Positions 5,932 through 25,144 of a DNA stretch of 37,005 bases are shown piece after piece. This DNA is from Synechococcus sp. GreenBA-s (GTDB taxonomy: Bacteria; Cyanobacteriota; Cyanobacteriia; PCC-6307; Cyanobiaceae). The stretch covers positions 1 through 37,005 of the forward strand of contig NZ_JAGQBX010000024.1 in assembly GCF_024345855.1 (NCBI RefSeq), in the 5' to 3' direction. The first letter of the stretch is position 1. The number at the start of each line of letters is the position of its first letter. The notes under the pieces were generated by a model. The model saw nothing but the letters and a program-made list of their open reading frames with translations. It was not told the origin of the DNA and ran no database searches. A program made the position numbers and the translations under genes.

Positions 5932-6399
5932 TCAGACGGCGAAGGAGCTGCCGCAGCCGCAGGTCTGGGAGGCGTTGGGGTTGCTGAAGTTGAAGCCGCC
6001 GCCGATCAGGGCCGTGGAGAAGTCGAGCTGCATCCCGTAGATGTAGAGGAGGCTCTTGGGATCGCTCACCACCGTGAAGCTGGGGGCACCCTCCGGCTCG
6101 TAGAGGTACTGCTCGTCGTCGTCGCGGATCGTGCCGGCCTCCACGAAGTCCATCGTGTAGCTCATGCCGCTGCAGCCACCGGAGCGCACGCCCACCCGCA
6201 GCACCTTGTCGCCGCCCTGTTGGGTCATCAGCAGGGCCAGCTGCTTCATGGCCGGCTCGGTGACCAGGATGCCCTTGCCGCCCTGGGCCGTGAAGGTGGC
6301 CTGGGGGGCTGCGTTGGTGGCCGCCGGCTCCGCGGCGGCGGCTGGTGGCAGGGTCGTGGCCGGGGTGGTCGCGGTGGCCGTCGCGGTCTCGCTGGTCAT
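5932..6399 (-). CDS. A-type iron-sulfur cluster carrier (SufA/IscA/ErpA family)
   Basis: A-type carriers bind an Fe-S cluster and pass it to apo-enzymes. The fold covers about residues 42-155 (ILVTEPAMKQLALLM to the end). The three ligand cysteines are present: C76 in SGGCSGMSY, and C147 and C149 in QTCGCGSSF. LYIYGMQLDFST and GFNFSNPNA are also family signatures. At 155 residues it exceeds the usual ~110-120, because the first 40 residues are a Thr/Ala/Pro-rich tail. A TAGAGT box 25 bases before the ATG supports this start, so the tail is probably translated. It is divergent from crtQ, and the two promoters are mirror images. Whether it is closer to SufA, IscA or ErpA cannot be settled by eye. 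Confidence 0.92.
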   Translation of the reverse strand: MTSETATATATTPATTLPPAAAAEPAATNAAPQATFTAQGGKGILVTEPAMKQLALLMTQQGGDKVLRVGVRSGGCSGMSYTMDFVEAGTIRDDDEQYLYEPEGAPSFTVVSDPKSLLYIYGMQLDFSTALIGGGFNFSNPNASQTCGCGSSFAV

Positions 6400-6528: not shown

Positions 6529-8010
6529 GTGCGCGTCGCCATCGTGGGTGCGGGATTGGCCGGTCTGGCGGCGGCGGTGGATCTGGTGGAGGCCGGCCAC
6601 CAGGTGGATCTCTACGAGGCGCGCCCGTTCATGGGCGGCAAGGTGGGCAGCTGGGTGGATGGGGACGGCAACCACATCGAGATGGGGCTGCATGTGTTCT
6701 TCTTCAACTACGCCAATCTGTTCGCCCTGCTGCGCAAGGTGGGCGCCTTCGAGAACCTGCTGCCCAAGCCGCACACCCACCTGTTCGTGAACACGGGCGG
6801 TGACCTGCGCGAACTCGATTTCCGCTTTGCCCTCGGCGCTCCCTTCAACGGGCTCAAGGCCTTCTTCACCACCCCCCAGCTCGACTGGATCGACAAGCTG
6901 CGCAACGCCCTGGCCCTGGGCACCAGTCCGATCGTGCGCGGCCTGATCGACTACGACGGCGCGATGAAGGTGATCCGCGATCTCGATCGCATCAGCTTCC
7001 AGCAGTGGTTCCTGGGCCACGGCGGCAGCCAGCAGAGCATCCAGCGGATGTGGAATCCGATCGCCTACGCCCTGGGCTTCATCGACTGCGAGGCCATCTC
7101 GGCCCGCTGCATGCTCACCATCTTCCTGATGTTTGCGGCGAAAACCGAGGCCTCCAAGCTCAACCTGCTCAAGGGCTCGCCCCACCGCTGGCTCACCGGC
7201 CCGATCCTGGATTACATCCAGCAGCGGGGCGCCCGCTTGCACCTGCGCCACCGGGTCACTGAGATCCATTATGCGTCGGCGGCGGCCGGCGAGACCCAGG
7301 TGACCGGCCTCAGCCTGGGGACCCCCGAGGGCGAGATCCAGGTGCAGGCCGATGCCTACCTGGCCGCCTGTGATGTGCCTGGCATCCAGCGGATGATCCC
7401 CGAGGCCTGGCGCTGTCACAGCCTGTTCGACAACATCTACAAGCTCGAAGCCGTCCCCGTGGCCACGGTGCAGCTCCGCTACGACGGCTGGGTGACGGAA
7501 CTGGGCGATTCCCCCGAAGCCCAGGCCGCCCGCAGCGATGTGAGCCGCCCCGCCGGCCTCGACAACCTGCTCTACACCGCGGACGCCGACTTCAGCTGCT
7601 TCGCCGATCTGGCCTTGGCCAGTCCCGTCGACTACCGCAAGCCGGGTGTGGGCTCGCTGCTGCAGTGCGTGCTCACCCCCGGCGATCCCTGGATCCCCAA
7701 GAAAACCGAGGAGATCGTGGCCGCCACCGATGCCCAGGTGCGGCGCCTGTTCCCCTCGGCCGCCGGCCTCACGCTGGTGTGGAGCAACGTGGTCAAGCTG
7801 GCCCAGTCGCTGTATCGCGAAGCCCCCGGCATGGAGCCCTACCGGCCGGATCAGCGCACGCCGGTGGCCAACTTCTTCCTGGCCGGCAGCTATACGAAGC
7901 AGGACTACATCGATTCGATGGAAGGTGCCACCATGAGCGGCCGCCTGGCCGCGGCGGCGATCCTCGACCGCCCCGTCGCCCTGGCCGGCCAGGCTGAGCT
8001 CGCCCACTGA
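6529..8010 (+). CDS. crtQ: Zeta-carotene desaturase (CrtQ/ZDS)
   Basis: The enzyme converts 9,9'-di-cis-zeta-carotene through neurosporene to prolycopene, with electrons passed to plastoquinone at the thylakoid. The 493-residue protein has the FAD-binding dinucleotide motif [14 protein letters not shown] (GxGxxG at 7-12), then [13 protein letters not shown], the plant/cyanobacterial-type block [28 protein letters not shown], and the C-terminal FAD signature [19 protein letters not shown]. That last block and the [10 protein letters not shown] stretch favour ZDS over phytoene desaturase (PDS). Translation starts at GTG 6529, preceded by GGGAGCAGCAGG and a TAGAGT box. The stop lies inside a three-copy 16-bp repeat. 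An SRPBCC gene follows 50 bases later. Confidence 0.93.
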
Positions 8011-8045
8011 CCGGCTCGCCCACTGTCCCGCTTGCCCACTGACCC
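7998..8045 (+). repeat. Three-copy 16-bp tandem repeat spanning the crtQ stop
   Basis: Units are GCTCGCCCACTGACCG (7998-8013), GCTCGCCCACTGTCCC (8014-8029) and GCTTGCCCACTGACCC (8030-8045). The first unit contains the crtQ stop codon; the next two fill most of the 50-base gap before the SRPBCC gene. This looks like local slippage duplication. Confidence 0.9.
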
Positions 8046-9143: not shown

Positions 9144-10010
9144 TTAGGGACTCAGCACCGTCGCGCAGGCGGCCACCAGGCCATCCAGGTCGTAGGGGTG
9201 GGCCTCGGCGTCCACCCGGCCCAGCAGCTCGCGGCAGGTCCGGCTGGTCTGGGGACCGATTGACACCAGGGCCACCGACGCCAGCCGCTCGCTCCAGGCG
9301 CTGCCGAACTGGCGCTCCAGCAGCTGGGCGGTGTGGCGCACGGTCTTGCCGCTGCTGAAGGTGATGGCGCTCACGCTGCCGGCCGCCAGGGCCGCGGCAG
9401 TGGCCGCCGGCAGGGCCTCCGGGCAGCGGGACTCGTAGGCCGGCACCTCCACCACCCGCGCCCCGGCCTCACCGAAGGCCTCCGCCAGCAGGGTGCGGCC
9501 GCCGCTCTGCACCCGCGGCAGCAGTAGCCTCTGCCCCCAGCCCGACACCGGGAAGTGCTCGATCAGGCTGTCGGCCACGAAGTCCGGCGGCACGAAATCG
9601 GCTGGGGCGCCCAGGGCCTCCAGGCTGGCGGCCGTCTTGCGGCCCACCGCCGCGATCTTCAGGCTGGCGGGCCGGCCGGCCAGGCTGCGGCCCTGCTGCT
9701 GCAGCCGCGCCTCCACGGCCTCGACGCCGTTGGCGCTGCTGACGATCATCCAGTGAAAGTCCTCCAGTTCCGCCAGGGCGTCGTCGAGGGGGCCCCAGCT
9801 GTCGGGCGGACCGATCACCAGGGCGGGCAGATCCAGCACCGTGGCGCCGGCCTGCTCGAACAGGCGGCGCGCTTCGCCCAGCTGCTGTTCGGCCCGGGTC
9901 ACGGCGATGCGGTGGCCGCGCAGGGGCTGGGGGGCGGCTGGGGTCGTGTTGGCGCTGGCCTCGGAGGGTGACGGCCCGGAGGGGGCGCCCGCGGGGGTTG
10001 GCTCAGGCAT
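9144..10010 (-). CDS. hemD: Uroporphyrinogen-III synthase (HemD)
   Basis: HemD closes hydroxymethylbilane with inversion of ring D to give uroporphyrinogen III, the branch point to heme, chlorophyll, bilins and siroheme/B12. The two alternating domains are visible: GHRIAVTRAEQQLGEARRLF and WMIVSSANGVEAVEARL in the first, then AAVGRKTAASLEALG, and ITFSSGKTVRHTAQLL with VALVSIGPQTSRTCRELLG toward the end. The sequence is weakly conserved in this family, but this motif order is typical. The 288 residues include about 27 N-terminal Pro/Ala/Ser-rich residues before LRGHRIAVTR. It starts four bases after the stop of the glycosyltransferase-TPR gene on the same strand, so the two are co-transcribed. 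Confidence 0.9.
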   Translation of the reverse strand: MPEPTPAGAPSGPSPSEASANTTPAAPQPLRGHRIAVTRAEQQLGEARRLFEQAGATVLDLPALVIGPPDSWGPLDDALAELEDFHWMIVSSANGVEAVEARLQQQGRSLAGRPASLKIAAVGRKTAASLEALGAPADFVPPDFVADSLIEHFPVSGWGQRLLLPRVQSGGRTLLAEAFGEAGARVVEVPAYESRCPEALPAATAAALAAGSVSAITFSSGKTVRHTAQLLERQFGSAWSERLASVALVSIGPQTSRTCRELLGRVDAEAHPYDLDGLVAACATVLSP

Positions 10011-11273: not shown

Positions 11274-12881
11274 TCAGTCGGTGAAGCCGCCCTCCAGGGC
11301 CGCGGCCGCGAGCCCCAGCCGCTCCAGCAGCACCGCCTGGGCCTGGGGCATCTGGCCGGGGCTGAAGGCCGCCGGGATCCCCGCCGGCACCAGGGGGTGC
11401 AGCCGCTCCCACAGGTAGGGGCTGCCGTAGACCGCCAGCCCCGCCAGCCGACCGGCCGCCACCAGCTGGGCCAGGGCGGCGGGCCAGGGTTCGTCGCCGC
11501 CGGCGCTGCCGCGGAAGGGGTTGCCCCGCACGAACAGCTGCAGCAGCACCGGGCCCGCCGGCAGCCGCTCCAGGGCCAGGGGGGCCTGGGGATCGCCGCT
11601 CCAGGGGCTGCGGCTGCGGCCCTCGATCAGGCAGGCCCCGTAGCCGGCGGCGGAGGGCCTCAGCAGGGCCGGAGCCATCGCAGGCAGGAACGGGCAGTTC
11701 AGGGCCGTGTCCAGCCGGATCAGGTTGACGCCGGGGCCCCCAGGCAGGGCTGGGGGGGTGGTCAGGGCCGGCTCCAGACTCAGCTCCAGGAGCTCCCGGC
11801 TCAAGGCCTGCTCCGCCGCCGACACCAGGCCGTCCAGGGCGACCTCCACCGGCTCCAGGGGGGCGGCGCCGAGCCCGGCCAGGGCCTGCTCCCGTCGCGC
11901 CAGGCTCTGCTCCAGGCGTTCCCTGGCGATGCGGCCGCTGGCGAGGGCCGTCACCAGGCCGTCAATGGCGGCGTCGGCGTCGGCCGGCATCAGGATGATG
12001 TCGGCTCCGGCCCCAAAGGCCAGCACCGCCGCCTCGGCGGCCCCGTAGCGGCCGGCGATGGCCTCCATCACCAAGGCGTCGGTCACCACCAGGCCGCCGA
12101 AGCCCAGATCGCGGCGCAGCAGCCCCTCCAGCACCGCCGCCGAGAGGGTGGCGGGCCGCTCGGGATCCAGGGCCGGCAGCTGCAGGTGGGCCGTCATCAC
12201 CGCGGCCACGCCGGCGGCGATGGCGGCGCGGAAGGGGGGCAGTTCCACCGCCTCCAGGCGGGCGCGGCTGTGGGGCAGCAGCGGCAGCTCCAGGTGGGAG
12301 TCCGTGCTGGTGTCGCCGTGGCCAGGGAAGTGCTTGGCGCAGGCGAGCACGCCGGCCCCCTGGCAGCCCCGCACAAACGCCGACGCCAGGGAACCCGCCG
12401 TGGCCGGATCCTCCCCCCAGGCCCGCACGTTGATCACGGGGTTGGCCGGGTTGTTGTTCACATCGCACACCGGGCCCAGCACCCAGTTCAGCCCCAGCAG
12501 CCGGGCCTGGCGGCCGGTGCAGTGGCCGTAGCGCCCGGCCAGCTCGATCGCCCGCTGCGGATCGCGCCCGTAGAGCCGGCCCACGGCCAGGGGCGGCACC
12601 AGCCAGCTTCCCCCCTCGAAGCGCTGGCCTACGCCCTCCTCCACATCGGCGCAGAGCAGCAGGGGGCCATCCGCCCAGCGGCGCAGCTGGTCCGTGCGCA
12701 GCCGCAGCTCGGCGGCGCTCCCCCCCAGCAGGATCACCCCGCCCACCCCGGCCTCGAGCAGCCGTTGCAGCTCGGCGTTGGGCAGCTCCCAGCGGGGGTA
12801 GCGGCGCTGGCCGTCGCTCCAGTGCCCGCTGCCGCGCACCACCAGCAGCTGGGCCACCCGGCGACGCAGGTCAGACGTCAT
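11274..12881 (-). CDS. Glycoside hydrolase family 3, NagZ-like beta-N-acetylhexosaminidase
   Basis: The NagZ signature KHFPGHGDTSTDSH lies at about residues 182-195 and supplies the Asp/His acid-base dyad. The nucleophile Asp is in VVTDALVMEA near residue 265. NagZ enzymes remove N-acetylglucosamine from muropeptides in peptidoglycan recycling. At 535 residues the protein is much longer than typical NagZ (~340). The extra ~190 C-terminal residues resemble a GH3 C-terminal alpha/beta domain (for example GPVLLQLFVRGNPF, LAGLAVYGSPYLW). No signal peptide is evident, so a cytoplasmic location is likely. It follows rbfA by 17 bases on the same strand. Confidence 0.88.
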   Translation of the reverse strand: MTSDLRRRVAQLLVVRGSGHWSDGQRRYPRWELPNAELQRLLEAGVGGVILLGGSAAELRLRTDQLRRWADGPLLLCADVEEGVGQRFEGGSWLVPPLAVGRLYGRDPQRAIELAGRYGHCTGRQARLLGLNWVLGPVCDVNNNPANPVINVRAWGEDPATAGSLASAFVRGCQGAGVLACAKHFPGHGDTSTDSHLELPLLPHSRARLEAVELPPFRAAIAAGVAAVMTAHLQLPALDPERPATLSAAVLEGLLRRDLGFGGLVVTDALVMEAIAGRYGAAEAAVLAFGAGADIILMPADADAAIDGLVTALASGRIARERLEQSLARREQALAGLGAAPLEPVEVALDGLVSAAEQALSRELLELSLEPALTTPPALPGGPGVNLIRLDTALNCPFLPAMAPALLRPSAAGYGACLIEGRSRSPWSGDPQAPLALERLPAGPVLLQLFVRGNPFRGSAGGDEPWPAALAQLVAAGRLAGLAVYGSPYLWERLHPLVPAGIPAAFSPGQMPQAQAVLLERLGLAAAALEGGFTD

Positions 12882-14384: not shown

Positions 14385-15293
14385 TCACGGATCTGGGGCT
14401 CGACCGGCTGGTGCTGGCTCCTCCGCCAGCCGCTCCAGCACCAGGCTGCCGTGCCACGGATGGCGGGCCGTGGCCGCCAGGCCCGCCGCCGGTGATCCAT
14501 AGCTGGTCTGCCACTGCTCGGCCTCGATCCGCCCTGGGCCCAGCCGGCGGTAGCGGCTCAGGGTCTCCACGCGGCTGACCCGCGGATCGCCGGGGCCGTG
14601 CAGCACCTGCAGGGCGAGTTCATCGGCCAGGAACACGTCGGCTGGCCCCCGGGCTGTGGATCCCTCGGCCGATCCCGCCGCTGCAGGGCTGGCTCCCGCA
14701 CCGGTGTCGCCCCCAGCCCCTGGCGCGGCGCTGCGCCGGCCGATCACGCTGGATTCCAGCTGGCGATCCCCCGTGAGCTCTGCCAGCTGCCGGTTGGGAT
14801 TGCGGGGATCGTTGCGGACCCCCTGCAGCTGTTCCCCCAGCAGGGCACGGCCGATGGCGGCGGTATTGAAGGCCCGATCGCCCACCACCGCGCCGCGTCG
14901 ATCCGGCCCGAAGCGCACCGTGTAGCGGAGGTCCGGTTCCTGGCCCGAGAGGTCGTGGCTGCGGGCCCGCCAGGTGCCGGCAAACCAGGCGGGATAGGTC
15001 AGATCGGTGTGGCCAGGGCGCGGCAGGGGCGCCGGCAGGCTCCAGTCGGGCCAGCGGGCCAGGCGCGTCTCCAGCCAGGCCGCGTCGGCTGCGACCGTCG
15101 CCGCCGTCGGCCGGCCAGCCGCTGGGGTCACGGCCGCGAAGGCCGGTGCGGCCGTGGGGGCCACCGCGAACACCAGGATCAACGCGATGGGCAGGCCCAG
15201 GTGCAACGCCACGGGCAGGCCGAGGCGCAGGTACAGGGCCGCCGCCCGAACGAGCCGCAGGACCGGAAGCAGGGCCGAAAGCAGGATCGACAC
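14385..15293 (-). CDS. Exported or membrane-anchored DUF6816-like protein
   Basis: From a GTG at 15293 the protein has a long hydrophobic N-terminus with two hydrophobic stretches (LPVALHLGLPIALILVFAVA ends in APAFAA), which is a signal peptide or anchor. The mature part has LTYPAWFAGTWRARSHDLSG, then VRFGPDRRGAVVGDRAFNT and DVFLADELALQVLHGPG. It resembles the cyanobacterial/plant-lumen family DUF6816 as I remember it (YPxWFxGTWxVxS near the start); the reaction is unknown. A low-complexity Gly/Ala/Ser insert (about residues 205-230) interrupts the domain. The start is uncertain: no ATG fits the hydrophobic N-terminus. It is divergent from the CRR7-like gene. Confidence 0.65.
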   Translation of the reverse strand: MSILLSALLPVLRLVRAAALYLRLGLPVALHLGLPIALILVFAVAPTAAPAFAAVTPAAGRPTAATVAADAAWLETRLARWPDWSLPAPLPRPGHTDLTYPAWFAGTWRARSHDLSGQEPDLRYTVRFGPDRRGAVVGDRAFNTAAIGRALLGEQLQGVRNDPRNPNRQLAELTGDRQLESSVIGRRSAAPGAGGDTGAGASPAAAGSAEGSTARGPADVFLADELALQVLHGPGDPRVSRVETLSRYRRLGPGRIEAEQWQTSYGSPAAGLAATARHPWHGSLVLERLAEEPAPAGRAPDP

Positions 15294-22307: not shown

Positions 22308-23657
22308 TCAGCAGGCTGTGAACCGGGGCTCCAGGCGGAGCCGGCGGCGCTGCAGCAGCTGCCAGGCCCCCAGGGCTACCCCCAGGCTGCCCAGCAGAGC
22401 GAAGCAGGCGCTGAAGCCCGCCTGAAGGGTCAGTCCCGCCGCTATCAGCCCACTCAGGCCGCCACCGCCGAGGAAGGCGATCTGGCCCAGGCCCGCCATG
22501 CGGCCCCGCAGTCTCTGGGGCGCGTGCACCTGGATCAGCAGGTTCGTCCCCGCCAGCAGGCAGGCCGTGCCGGCCCCGATCAGGTAGGCCATCGCCAGCC
22601 CCCACAGGGGACTCCACGGCAGGGCCAGGCCCACCTGCGCCACGCCGCTGACCAAGGTGGCCAACCCCAGCAGCAGGCCGGGCCGCTCGCCCAGCAGGTT
22701 GGCCCGCCGCTGCAGCAGCACCCCGCCGCTGATGCTGCCGGCCGCCACCACGCTGGTGAACACGCCCAGCTCCTGGGGGCTCGGCCCCAGCAGGCGGCTG
22801 GCCATCAGCGGCGCCAGGCCCGGGTGGAAGAAGCCCACCAGGCAGGCCACGGCCGTGAACACCAGCACGTGGCGCAGGCCCGGCCCGCACTCGCGCCAGG
22901 CGGTGGCGAGGCTGGCGGCCTCACCCCGCTGGCTGCGCTGCTCCCGCTCCCGGTGCGGGGCCATCAGCCACAGCAGCGTGCTGATCGGCAGCAGGTAGGT
23001 GGCGGCATCCAGCGCCAGGGCCAGGGTCGGCCCGGTGGCCGCCAGCAGCAGTCCCCCCAGGGGCGGCCCCACCAGCTTGCCCACGTTGAAGATCACCGAG
23101 AAGCTGGTGAGGTAGGGCCCCAGCTGCTCCGGGGTGTCCACCAGCAGGGCGACGTATTTGTTGCGGGCCGTGAGCTCGTAGGCACTGGCGGTGCCGATGC
23201 CCAGGGTGCTGAGCAGCAGCAGCGCCGCCTGGGTGGCACCCGTGCTGATCGGGATGGCGATGGCGCCGAGCACGGCGGCGGCGAACAGGCCCCACTGGGC
23301 CCGCACCAGCACCTGCTCGCTGCCGAGCCGGTCGGTGAGCACGCCCGCCGGGCCGCTCACCACCAGGGTGGGCAGGGTGAGCAGGGCGAAGTGCAGGGCC
23401 AGCAGCAGCGGGTTGGCGCTGCCGTGCATCAGCAGCCAGCCCTTGGCGGTGAGGCCGGCGAACGATCCCGCGGTGCTCAGGCCCGAGGCCAGCAGGAAGG
23501 TGGTGCGCTGCTGGCGGGTGAGCCGGCGGCGCAGGCGCCCCAGCTGGGCGCGCAGGGCGAAGAGCGGGGGCTGCGCTGCGACGGCAGGCCGCCCGGGAGG
23601 CCGGGTCGGGGCCTCGTCGGCGCGGGGGCCCGGGCTGGGGACCTTCGGCAGGCTCAA
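22308..23657 (-). CDS. MFS transporter, probable drug or metabolite exporter
   Basis: The ~449-residue protein has about twelve hydrophobic segments in the major facilitator pattern, with [20 protein letters not shown] as the loop 2-3 motif (GxxaDrxG) and a similar repeat in the second half. It resembles the enterobactin-exporter/'MFS_3' type, but the substrate cannot be called. About 40 Pro/Arg-rich residues precede the first helix. The longest start is TTG 23657, which overlaps the rimO stop by four bases (TTGA), so the gene is probably translated from the rimO transcript. Confidence 0.85.
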
Positions 23658-25144
23658 GCGCCTGCCTGGCGGGCGGCGAGGGCGTCGCCCACCATCGCCT
23701 TCGCCCCCACCACTTCGCCCACCAGGTCGTAGGTGTCAGCGGCGGTGATGCGCACCGGCACCATCGTTCCCGGCGCGGCGCACAGGCCGCCCTCGCCGGG
23801 GAGCACCCGCACTTCGCCATCCACCTCGGGGGCGAAGCGGGCACAGCGGCCGAGCATCTCGCCCGTGCTCGGGTTCTCCTGCTCGATCAGCACATCCACG
23901 ATGCGGCCCACCCAGGCGGCATTGCGCGCGGCGGCGATCGGCTGCTGCAGGGCCATCAGCCGGTCCTTGCGCTCCTGGGCCACCGCGGGTGGAACCTGAT
24001 CCGGCAGCTCGGCGGCCGGGGTGCCCTCCTCCGGCGAGAAGGTGAACACGCCCACGTGGTCGAACTGCTGCTCGGCCACGAAATCCAGCAGGTGCTGGAA
24101 CTGCTCCTCGGTTTCGCCGGGGAAGCCCACGATGAAGGTGGTGCGCAGCACGGCTTCGGGCAGCTGCTCGCGGATGCGGCGCAGCACGCCGCCGGTCACC
24201 TCGGCCTGCCAGGGGCGGTTCATCGCCCGCAGCACCTCCGGGTGGCTGTGCTGCAGCGGCAGATCGAGGTAGGGCAGCACGTTGGCCACGTCGCGGTAGG
24301 CGGCGAGCACCTCCGTTGTGAGGCCGGTGGGGTAGGCGTAGTGCACGCGGATCCAGGGGATCTCCACCTCCCCCAGGGCCCGCAGCAGTTCGGCCAGCTG
24401 GGGTTTGCCGTACAGGTCGAGGCCGTAGTTGGTGGTGATCTGGCTGATCAGCACCAGCTCCTGCACCCCCTGGGCCGCCAGCTGCTGCGCCTCGGCCACG
24501 ATGCTCTCGATCGGGCGGGAGCGCTGGTCGCCGCGCAGGTGGGGAATGATGCAGAAGGCGCAGCGGTAGTCGCAGCCCTCGGCCACCTTCAGGTAGGCCA
24601 CGGCCTCGCTGGTGGTGCGGTAGCGGGGCAGGTGCTCATCGCCCACGAAGGTGGGGTTGGCACTCACCTGGTTCACCCGCTCGCCGGCCTCCACCCGCTC
24701 CAGCACGCTCACGATGTGCTGGTAGTCGCCGGTGCCCACGATCGCCCTGGCCTCGGGCAGGCTCTCCAGCAGCTCCTCCTGGAAGTGCTGGGCCAGGCAG
24801 CCGGCGATGATCAGCTCCTTGCCCTGCTCCGCCAGCTCCACCAGGGTGCGCACCGACTCCTCGCGCGCCTCCTGGATGAAGCTGCAGGTGTTCACCACCA
24901 CCACGGTGGCGTCGGATTCATCGGCGCTCACCCCATAGCCGGCCTCGGCCAGCAGGCCGAGCATGTGCTCGGTGTCCACCCGGTTCTTCTCGCAGCCCAG
25001 GTGGGCGAAGGCCACGGTCTTGCGGGGAGCCACGGTCTTGCGCTCCGCAGCGGTCTTGCGGGGCGCCTCGCTCTGGCGCGGCGCAGCGGCTTCGCCTGGC
25101 GCAGGGGTGCGGCGGGGGGCGGCGTCGCTGGCGGTCGGGCTCAT
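23654..25144 (-). CDS. rimO: Ribosomal protein S12 methylthiotransferase (RimO)
   Basis: RimO adds a methylthio group to Asp88 of ribosomal protein S12 using two [4Fe-4S] clusters and SAM. The UPF0004 domain begins [16 protein letters not shown] and includes [16 protein letters not shown] and IAGCLAQ, holding three cluster cysteines. The radical SAM CxxxCxxC lies in [16 protein letters not shown], followed by [11 protein letters not shown] and [19 protein letters not shown] domain is at the C-terminus. The HLGCEKN start and S-x-R/P pattern favour RimO over MiaB. From ATG 25144 the protein is ~496 residues, longer than the usual ~440, because of a ~40-residue N-terminal tail built from 6-residue repeats. 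Confidence 0.93.
25011..25100 (-). repeat. 18-bp tandem repeat array in the rimO 5' end
   Basis: Five 18-base units run 25011-25028, 25029-25046, 25047-25064, 25065-25082 and 25083-25100 (plus-strand units such as GCCACGGTCTTGCGGGGA and GCCACGGTCTTGCGCTCC). They encode, in protein order, [24 protein letters not shown] and APRKTV, directly before AFAHLG of the conserved domain. The innermost units are the most alike, the outer ones decayed. Confidence 0.85.

Follow-up and report, generated by a model that had tools for sequence, protein, structure and literature searches.

The rimO gene and its repeated 5' end

The stretch of DNA analysed here (the window, 37,005 nt) belongs to the genome of the freshwater picocyanobacterium Synechococcus sp. 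GreenBA-s (G000; 2.85 Mb in 92 contigs) and carries on its minus strand the gene rimO, specifying 30S ribosomal protein S12 methylthiotransferase (Table 1). The product reaches 575.7 bits with TIGR01125, the RimO equivalog model (cut-off 356.95), and falls below the cut-offs of the related MiaB (277.2; cut-off 355.3) and MtaB (257; cut-off 357.05) models. Pfam domains UPF0004, radical SAM and TRAM are present, and the protein agrees with RimO in domain order as well as in family score. Six cysteines, C51, C87 and C116 of UPF0004 and C191, C195 and C198 of the radical SAM domain, are invariant among 58 aligned proteins. The spacing of the latter three is CX3CX2C, as given in the accessible text of a review (PMC5352715). 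The UPF0004 spacing is CX35CX28C, the second gap being shorter than the CX32-33C quoted for methylthiotransferases in the same text. The rimO matches among named loci (best 80 of 575 candidates) come mostly from picocyanobacteria of the genera Vulcanococcus, Cyanobium and Synechococcus.

The RimO structure 4jc0, which we take to be that of Thermotoga, is homologous to residues 45-479 of the window protein (E = 2.9e-90). Residue 45 aligns with residue 4 of the 4jc0 chain, so that only three residues precede the aligned part in 4jc0, whereas the window protein has a leader of 44 residues containing a repeat. The same genome encodes an S12 protein with the motif RVKDLPGVRYH, presumably the site of the modified aspartate. 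Apart from the array at its 5' end, rimO appears otherwise normal, and methylthiolation of the S12 aspartate is the activity predicted from its family. Upstream of the gene lies what we take to be a BtpA-like gene followed by probable VKOR and NadB genes, and the gene just downstream (22308-23657, minus strand) looks like one for a membrane transporter. The BtpA-like, VKOR and NadB arrangement matches the cyanobacterial rimO synteny described, along with a rimO-crhR operon, in the accessible text of PMC8190605, but where that operon has the crhR helicase gene, the gene here looks like one for a transporter.

Table 1. Features of the rimO gene and of the array at its 5' end (window coordinates)
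Feature	Position	Strand	Remarks
rimO CDS, 30S ribosomal protein S12 methylthiotransferase	23654..25144	-	ATG at 25144, stop codon ends at 23654, 496 aa
N-terminal tail (residues 1-44, first conserved valine included)	25013..25144	-	predicted disorder, variable length
Unit 0, APRRTP, weak, probably pre-existing leader	25103..25120	-	8-13/18 bases in common with other units; opposite the L085 and L004 leaders
Unit 1, APGEAA, weak	25085..25102	-	its APG lies opposite the APG of the unexpanded relatives
Unit 2, APRQSE	25067..25084	-	13/18 bases in common with any of units 3-5
Unit 3, APRKTA	25049..25066	-	15/18 bases in common with unit 5
Unit 4, AERKTV	25031..25048	-	14/18 bases in common with unit 5; last codon GTG, which could in principle initiate
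Unit 5, APRKTV, likely seed, ending in the [K/R]-x-T-V domain edge	25013..25030	-	T43 and V44 near-invariant; predicted strand at 43-48
AFAHLG, first conserved residues, in phase, not a repeat copy	24995..25012	-	5-7/18 bases in common with the units

The preliminary description of this DNA reported five in-frame units of 18 bases at 25011-25100, reaching up to AFAHLG. Such a repeat is present, shifted by two nucleotides: the 18-bp units 1 to 5 span 25013-25102, are in frame and end at the first strand of the domain. Four of them are clear and one or two more are degenerate, as the inner units (2-5) have 13-15 of 18 bases in common pairwise and the outer ones (0 and 1) only 8-13 of 18 with the rest. 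Tandem Repeats Finder returned 25011-25084 with a period of 18 (4.1 copies, 75% matches) and 25015-25089 with a period of 36, the score of the latter (108) being the highest of the 21 rows for the window. The self-match score of the tail was 34, a value reached by none of 20,000 codon shuffles (best shuffle 27), and the tail was the strongest of 4,918 positions when 129-nt stretches on both strands of the window were scored. Self-matching peaks at lags of 18 and 36 (0.62 and 0.65), with other in-frame lags up to 48 at or below 0.42. The array is therefore in frame and periodic beyond its composition. The differences between units are substitutions, indicating that the array is not fresh.

At synonymous positions alone, copying at the DNA level is only marginally visible. 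When the inner four units were recoded with random synonymous codons they were as alike in 247 of 5,000 trials by identity and in 304 of 5,000 by identical codons (p about 0.05-0.06); for units 1 to 5 the numbers were 635 and 467 of 5,000 (p about 0.09-0.13). These values are read against a background of strong codon bias, which makes recoded units alike, and so the case for copying is made by the periodic amino acids and by the comparison with relatives, leaving the silent sites aside.

Between AFAHLG and the units no more than 5-7 of 18 bases agree. The start of the domain is therefore not itself repeated, and the copied segment ends at the domain edge. The last unit overlaps the domain only by the K-T-V of this edge. 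T43 and V44 are kept in at least 90% of the 58 aligned proteins, from which it follows that the edge of the domain is furnished by unit 5. In the structure predicted from the same alignment (mean pLDDT 76.6), residues 1-37 have values below 50 and the first strand covers residues 43-48.

Two other kinds of repeat were considered. A phase-variable (frame-switching) repeat was rejected because the 18-nt unit is a multiple of three. A dispersed repeat was likewise rejected. With up to three mismatches allowed, the 18-mer pattern has 42 occurrences genome-wide, 20 on the forward and 22 on the reverse strand, compared with 21 for a reversed-pattern control. The only site without mismatches, one of five with two mismatches and one with three lie inside the rimO array; no further adjoining sites were seen, and one pair of three-mismatch sites is 60 bases apart on C15. 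Nothing in this distribution points to a mobile or dispersed element.

RimO tails of related cyanobacteria

Homologs were drawn from the best 80 of 575 named candidates and from 23 of 25 genomes of the genus, that of the window included. Duplicates were merged; the N-terminal motif was unreadable in L074, L103 and L105, and the start in L047 and L083. Starts were set at the nearest in-frame ATG, a rule that can err, and by hand at GTG in L010, L019 and L057. This set (hereafter the rimO set) gave 79 distinct tails at the DNA level, 6-48 residues long, and 74 at the protein level, with a median of 15 residues. A core tree was reconstructed from 89 domain sequences without their tails. No starred branch of this tree holds the window sequence, and the nearest of the sequences taken in, by tree path, are L085 and L004, with core DNA identities to the window gene of 93.5% and 92.6%.

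The tails of these two relatives, MSQNAGDAAPRSPAAPGKTV (L085) and MSQSTSDAGTRQTPAPGKTV (L004), are 20 residues long, compared with 44 in the window, and their MSQ- start and leader resemble those of the window protein. The excess of the window tail is 24 codons, or 72 nt, which is exactly four times 18. When one gap is set by hand behind codon 17, the 17 codons before it and the three at the end of the tail pair without further gaps, the codon-position differences being 4, 2 and 5 in one comparison and 2, 4 and 7 in the other. At the domain edge both relatives have APGKTV; APRKTV is found in L010, L012 and L100, and EPRKTV in L104. Intermediate copy numbers (3, 4 or 5 units) were absent from the relatives' tails compared in the rimO set.

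Similar events were detected in other lineages. Each of the 70 distinct tails of at least 10 codons in the rimO set was compared with 2,000 codon shuffles for tandem copies, and five gave p <= 0.0015 where about 0.1 would be expected: the window (lags 18 and 36), L023 (24 nt), L104 (15 nt), L012 (15 nt) and L075 (12 nt). A sixth tail, that of L030, has an uncertain start and gave p = 0.0075. The clearest case is Synechococcus sp. Baikal-G1 (L023), which is a sister of L020 on the core tree (SH-aLRT 82). Its tail carries one added 24-nt in-frame unit at the domain edge (STAAPARKATV and STAAPARKATAAPARKATV are the two sequences compared), and the remaining differences between the two tails are all synonymous third-position changes. 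As in the window gene, a segment at this edge of the domain was duplicated in tandem and in frame; the case differs in its unit (24 nt, AAPARKAT), in having a single extra copy and in its lineage. The preliminary description had the start of the domain copied outward by slippage. The 24-codon excess and the duplications in other rimO tails do point to growth by copying of the segment that adjoins the domain, but AFAHLG was not part of it.

A separate observation concerns L005, L014, L015 and L097, whose tails show no third-position differences in 17 codons in any of the six pairs, while 84-100 of about 450 third positions differ in their rimO cores. The RNA around the start may be under constraint.

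Several alternatives bear on the reading of the array as duplicated coding DNA. Likeness between units could stem from biased composition, since the tail is rich in Ala, Pro, Arg, Lys and Thr and the genome sample has about 69% G+C; random synonymous recoding keeps the units nearly as alike, and the outer units are weak. The shuffles that failed to reach the observed score keep composition, however, lags 18 and 36 alone stand out, and the excess over the nearest relatives is an exact multiple of the unit. Composition is unlikely to be the sole source of the likeness, and that it replaces duplication altogether is hardly credible. Convergence on, or selection for, an APRKT-like peptide in place of DNA copying is possible, as synonymous sites back copying only marginally. 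If translation instead began at the in-frame GTG of unit 4 (25033-25031) or unit 5 (25015-25013), the array would be 5' leader DNA. Several relatives have tails of six residues by the nearest-ATG rule, and GTG starts were assigned to three sequences, as noted above. Against this, L085 and L004 have an in-frame ATG followed by Ser at the corresponding place, their tail frame is open and the length difference is a multiple of three. The codon for V44 is not GTG in relatives such as L009 (GTC), L010 and L100 (GTT) and L033 (ATC), and the purely synonymous differences outside the extra unit of L023 also speak for translated tails. A downstream start is accordingly improbable.

The tail might be a functional basic extension that docks RimO on rRNA, nascent 30S particles or S12, its copy number having been raised by selection. 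Its net charge is +5 (nine K/R, four D/E), the joint highest of the 74 distinct tails of the rimO set together with L077, whose start is uncertain, and the genome encodes the S12 protein with the presumed modification motif. Of the 74 tails, however, 39 have a net charge of +1, 15 of 0 and one of -1, the length and sequence of rimO tails are not conserved, the tail is predicted to be disordered, and RimO 4jc0 lacks such a tail. Moreover, S12 is strongly basic, and the accessible text of PMC5352715 describes the TRAM domain of RimO as having a polarity suited to holding it. On these grounds the earlier suggestion that a basic tail could touch rRNA or S12 is not upheld, and a docking function is very unlikely. 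Lys or Arg occupies the third or fourth position from the tail end in 70 of the 74 distinct tails, and because copying the domain edge also copies its Lys/Arg, a basic tail is explained without a binding role. The array probably has no consequence for RimO function.

Repeats and leaders elsewhere in the genome

In 427,005 bases of this genome, window included, 16 arrays had a self-match score of at least 26. The rimO array ranks joint sixth among them, so arrays this strong are no rarity here. Several of the 16 lie near possible protein starts. The strongest (L133:6418-6546) has a 24-nt period and encodes a repeat of NRDVNRNV type. An array at the cation-efflux gene (L133/L171; PF01545) was considered as a leader and set aside: the sister protein begins at the corresponding M-x-E-H or close to it, which probably places the array outside the coding sequence, upstream of the actual start.

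An M3 peptidase identified by Pfam (L128:2-1462, minus strand; L147) carries the leader MTAASASSSAPDSAVPGAAVPAAAAPAAAVSGVPPLL, with 15-nt (5-residue) repeats. Leaders of this peptidase were read across the genus genomes by tblastn anchoring (25 genomes searched), and that of the window genome has 37 residues. The sister genome has 24, and the leaders read in 22 others have 9-17. An ArdC-type protein (PF08401, PF18818; L121:13997-15001, minus strand) has a SGSRASGSRASG repeat at its start, directly before the domain.

The position of arrays was examined over 604,508 bases, including the window, with a home-made gene finder. This finder shortened some of the likely leaders and placed 21 of 55 arrays between genes, those of the M3 peptidase and the ArdC-like protein included. 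Twelve of the 34 arrays within genes were centred in the first 60 codons (21% expected, p = 0.04); at stricter thresholds the counts were 6 of 19 (p = 0.20) and 3 of 11 (p = 0.42). Any excess of arrays near gene starts is thus borderline.

Leader lengths were also compared with those of the sister genome G001. For the 14 measurable genes of the 32 listed in the window, 11 leaders are equal, three are longer and none is shorter; rimO failed the automatic leader-length rule and was compared with its relatives separately, as described above. Two of the three longer leaders (9144-10010 and 5932-6399) look rich in Ala, Pro, Ser and Thr, and the third (14385-15293) has an uncertain start. The leader of the gene at 9144-10010 (minus strand), which we take to be HemD (uroporphyrinogen-III synthase), is MPEPTPAGAPSGPSPSEASANTTPAAPQPLRG, which exceeds its G001 counterpart by 14 residues and that of G005 by 20. 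A case against general lengthening is the gene at 11274-12881, with a tail of three residues in the window and 13 in G005. Two further repeats of the window were recorded: a 24-bp tandem array of 2.4 copies (15173-15229) inside the ORF at 14385-15293, in its hydrophobic N-terminal region, and a 16-bp unit present three times (7998-8045) over a predicted gene end (8010) and the gap before the next gene (8061).

The wider proposal that the N-terminal tails of this genome may grow in this way is weakly supported by the M3 peptidase parallel; the enrichment at gene starts is lost at stricter thresholds, and 11 of 14 leaders are equal to those of the sister.

Origin and significance of the tail

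The tail of RimO is best explained by tandem duplication of the hexapeptide next to the domain, through which a disordered and dispensable leader grew in this particular lineage, a reading we regard as likely. The array would then be a middle-aged in-frame coding minisatellite, its seed being the AP[R/G]KTV hexapeptide that adjoins the UPF0004 domain at its first beta strand. We infer that replication slippage or unequal recombination copied this seed outward, with a net gain of 72 nt, or four 18-nt units, and that the outer units were later blurred by substitutions. As a disordered, non-essential leader the tail would tolerate growth, any multiple of 3 nt presumably being harmless in it. Selection would hold the domain edge, so that the same seed is supplied again and again, and the basic charge may be a by-product, each copy bringing along the Lys/Arg that nearly all these proteins have ahead of the first strand.

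In the accessible text of a review (PMC3899988), the growth of tandem repeats is ascribed as a rule to strand slippage or recombination. With bacterial coding minisatellites and variable tandem repeats the rimO array has in common a short in-frame tandem unit. The bacterial cases in that text concern unstable repeats by which surface genes or others are switched, whereas the rimO array is imperfect, keeps the frame and lies in a housekeeping enzyme, and the length differences of the rimO tail are seen between species. A literature search, which covered few subscription papers, showed nothing on RimO tails among the titles and abstract openings listed, and no paper on rimO together with a tandem repeat. 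The array represents ordinary protein-end evolution.

As a doubtful extension, a conserved domain edge might act as a standing seed from which DNA is duplicated outward while the outer copies decay, so that tails lengthen by a ratchet; besides rimO, this could apply to the M3 peptidase and perhaps the ArdC-like protein in this high-G+C picocyanobacterial lineage. The rimO gene offers a compact example of leader lengthening: the nearest relatives are unexpanded, the window tail exceeds theirs by exactly four units, and the same gene provides at least one clean parallel in L020 and L023. If such growth occurs genome-wide at domain edges, it would provide a testable explanation both for the Ala/Pro/Ser/Thr-rich leaders of high-G+C picocyanobacteria and for misplaced start codons in annotation.
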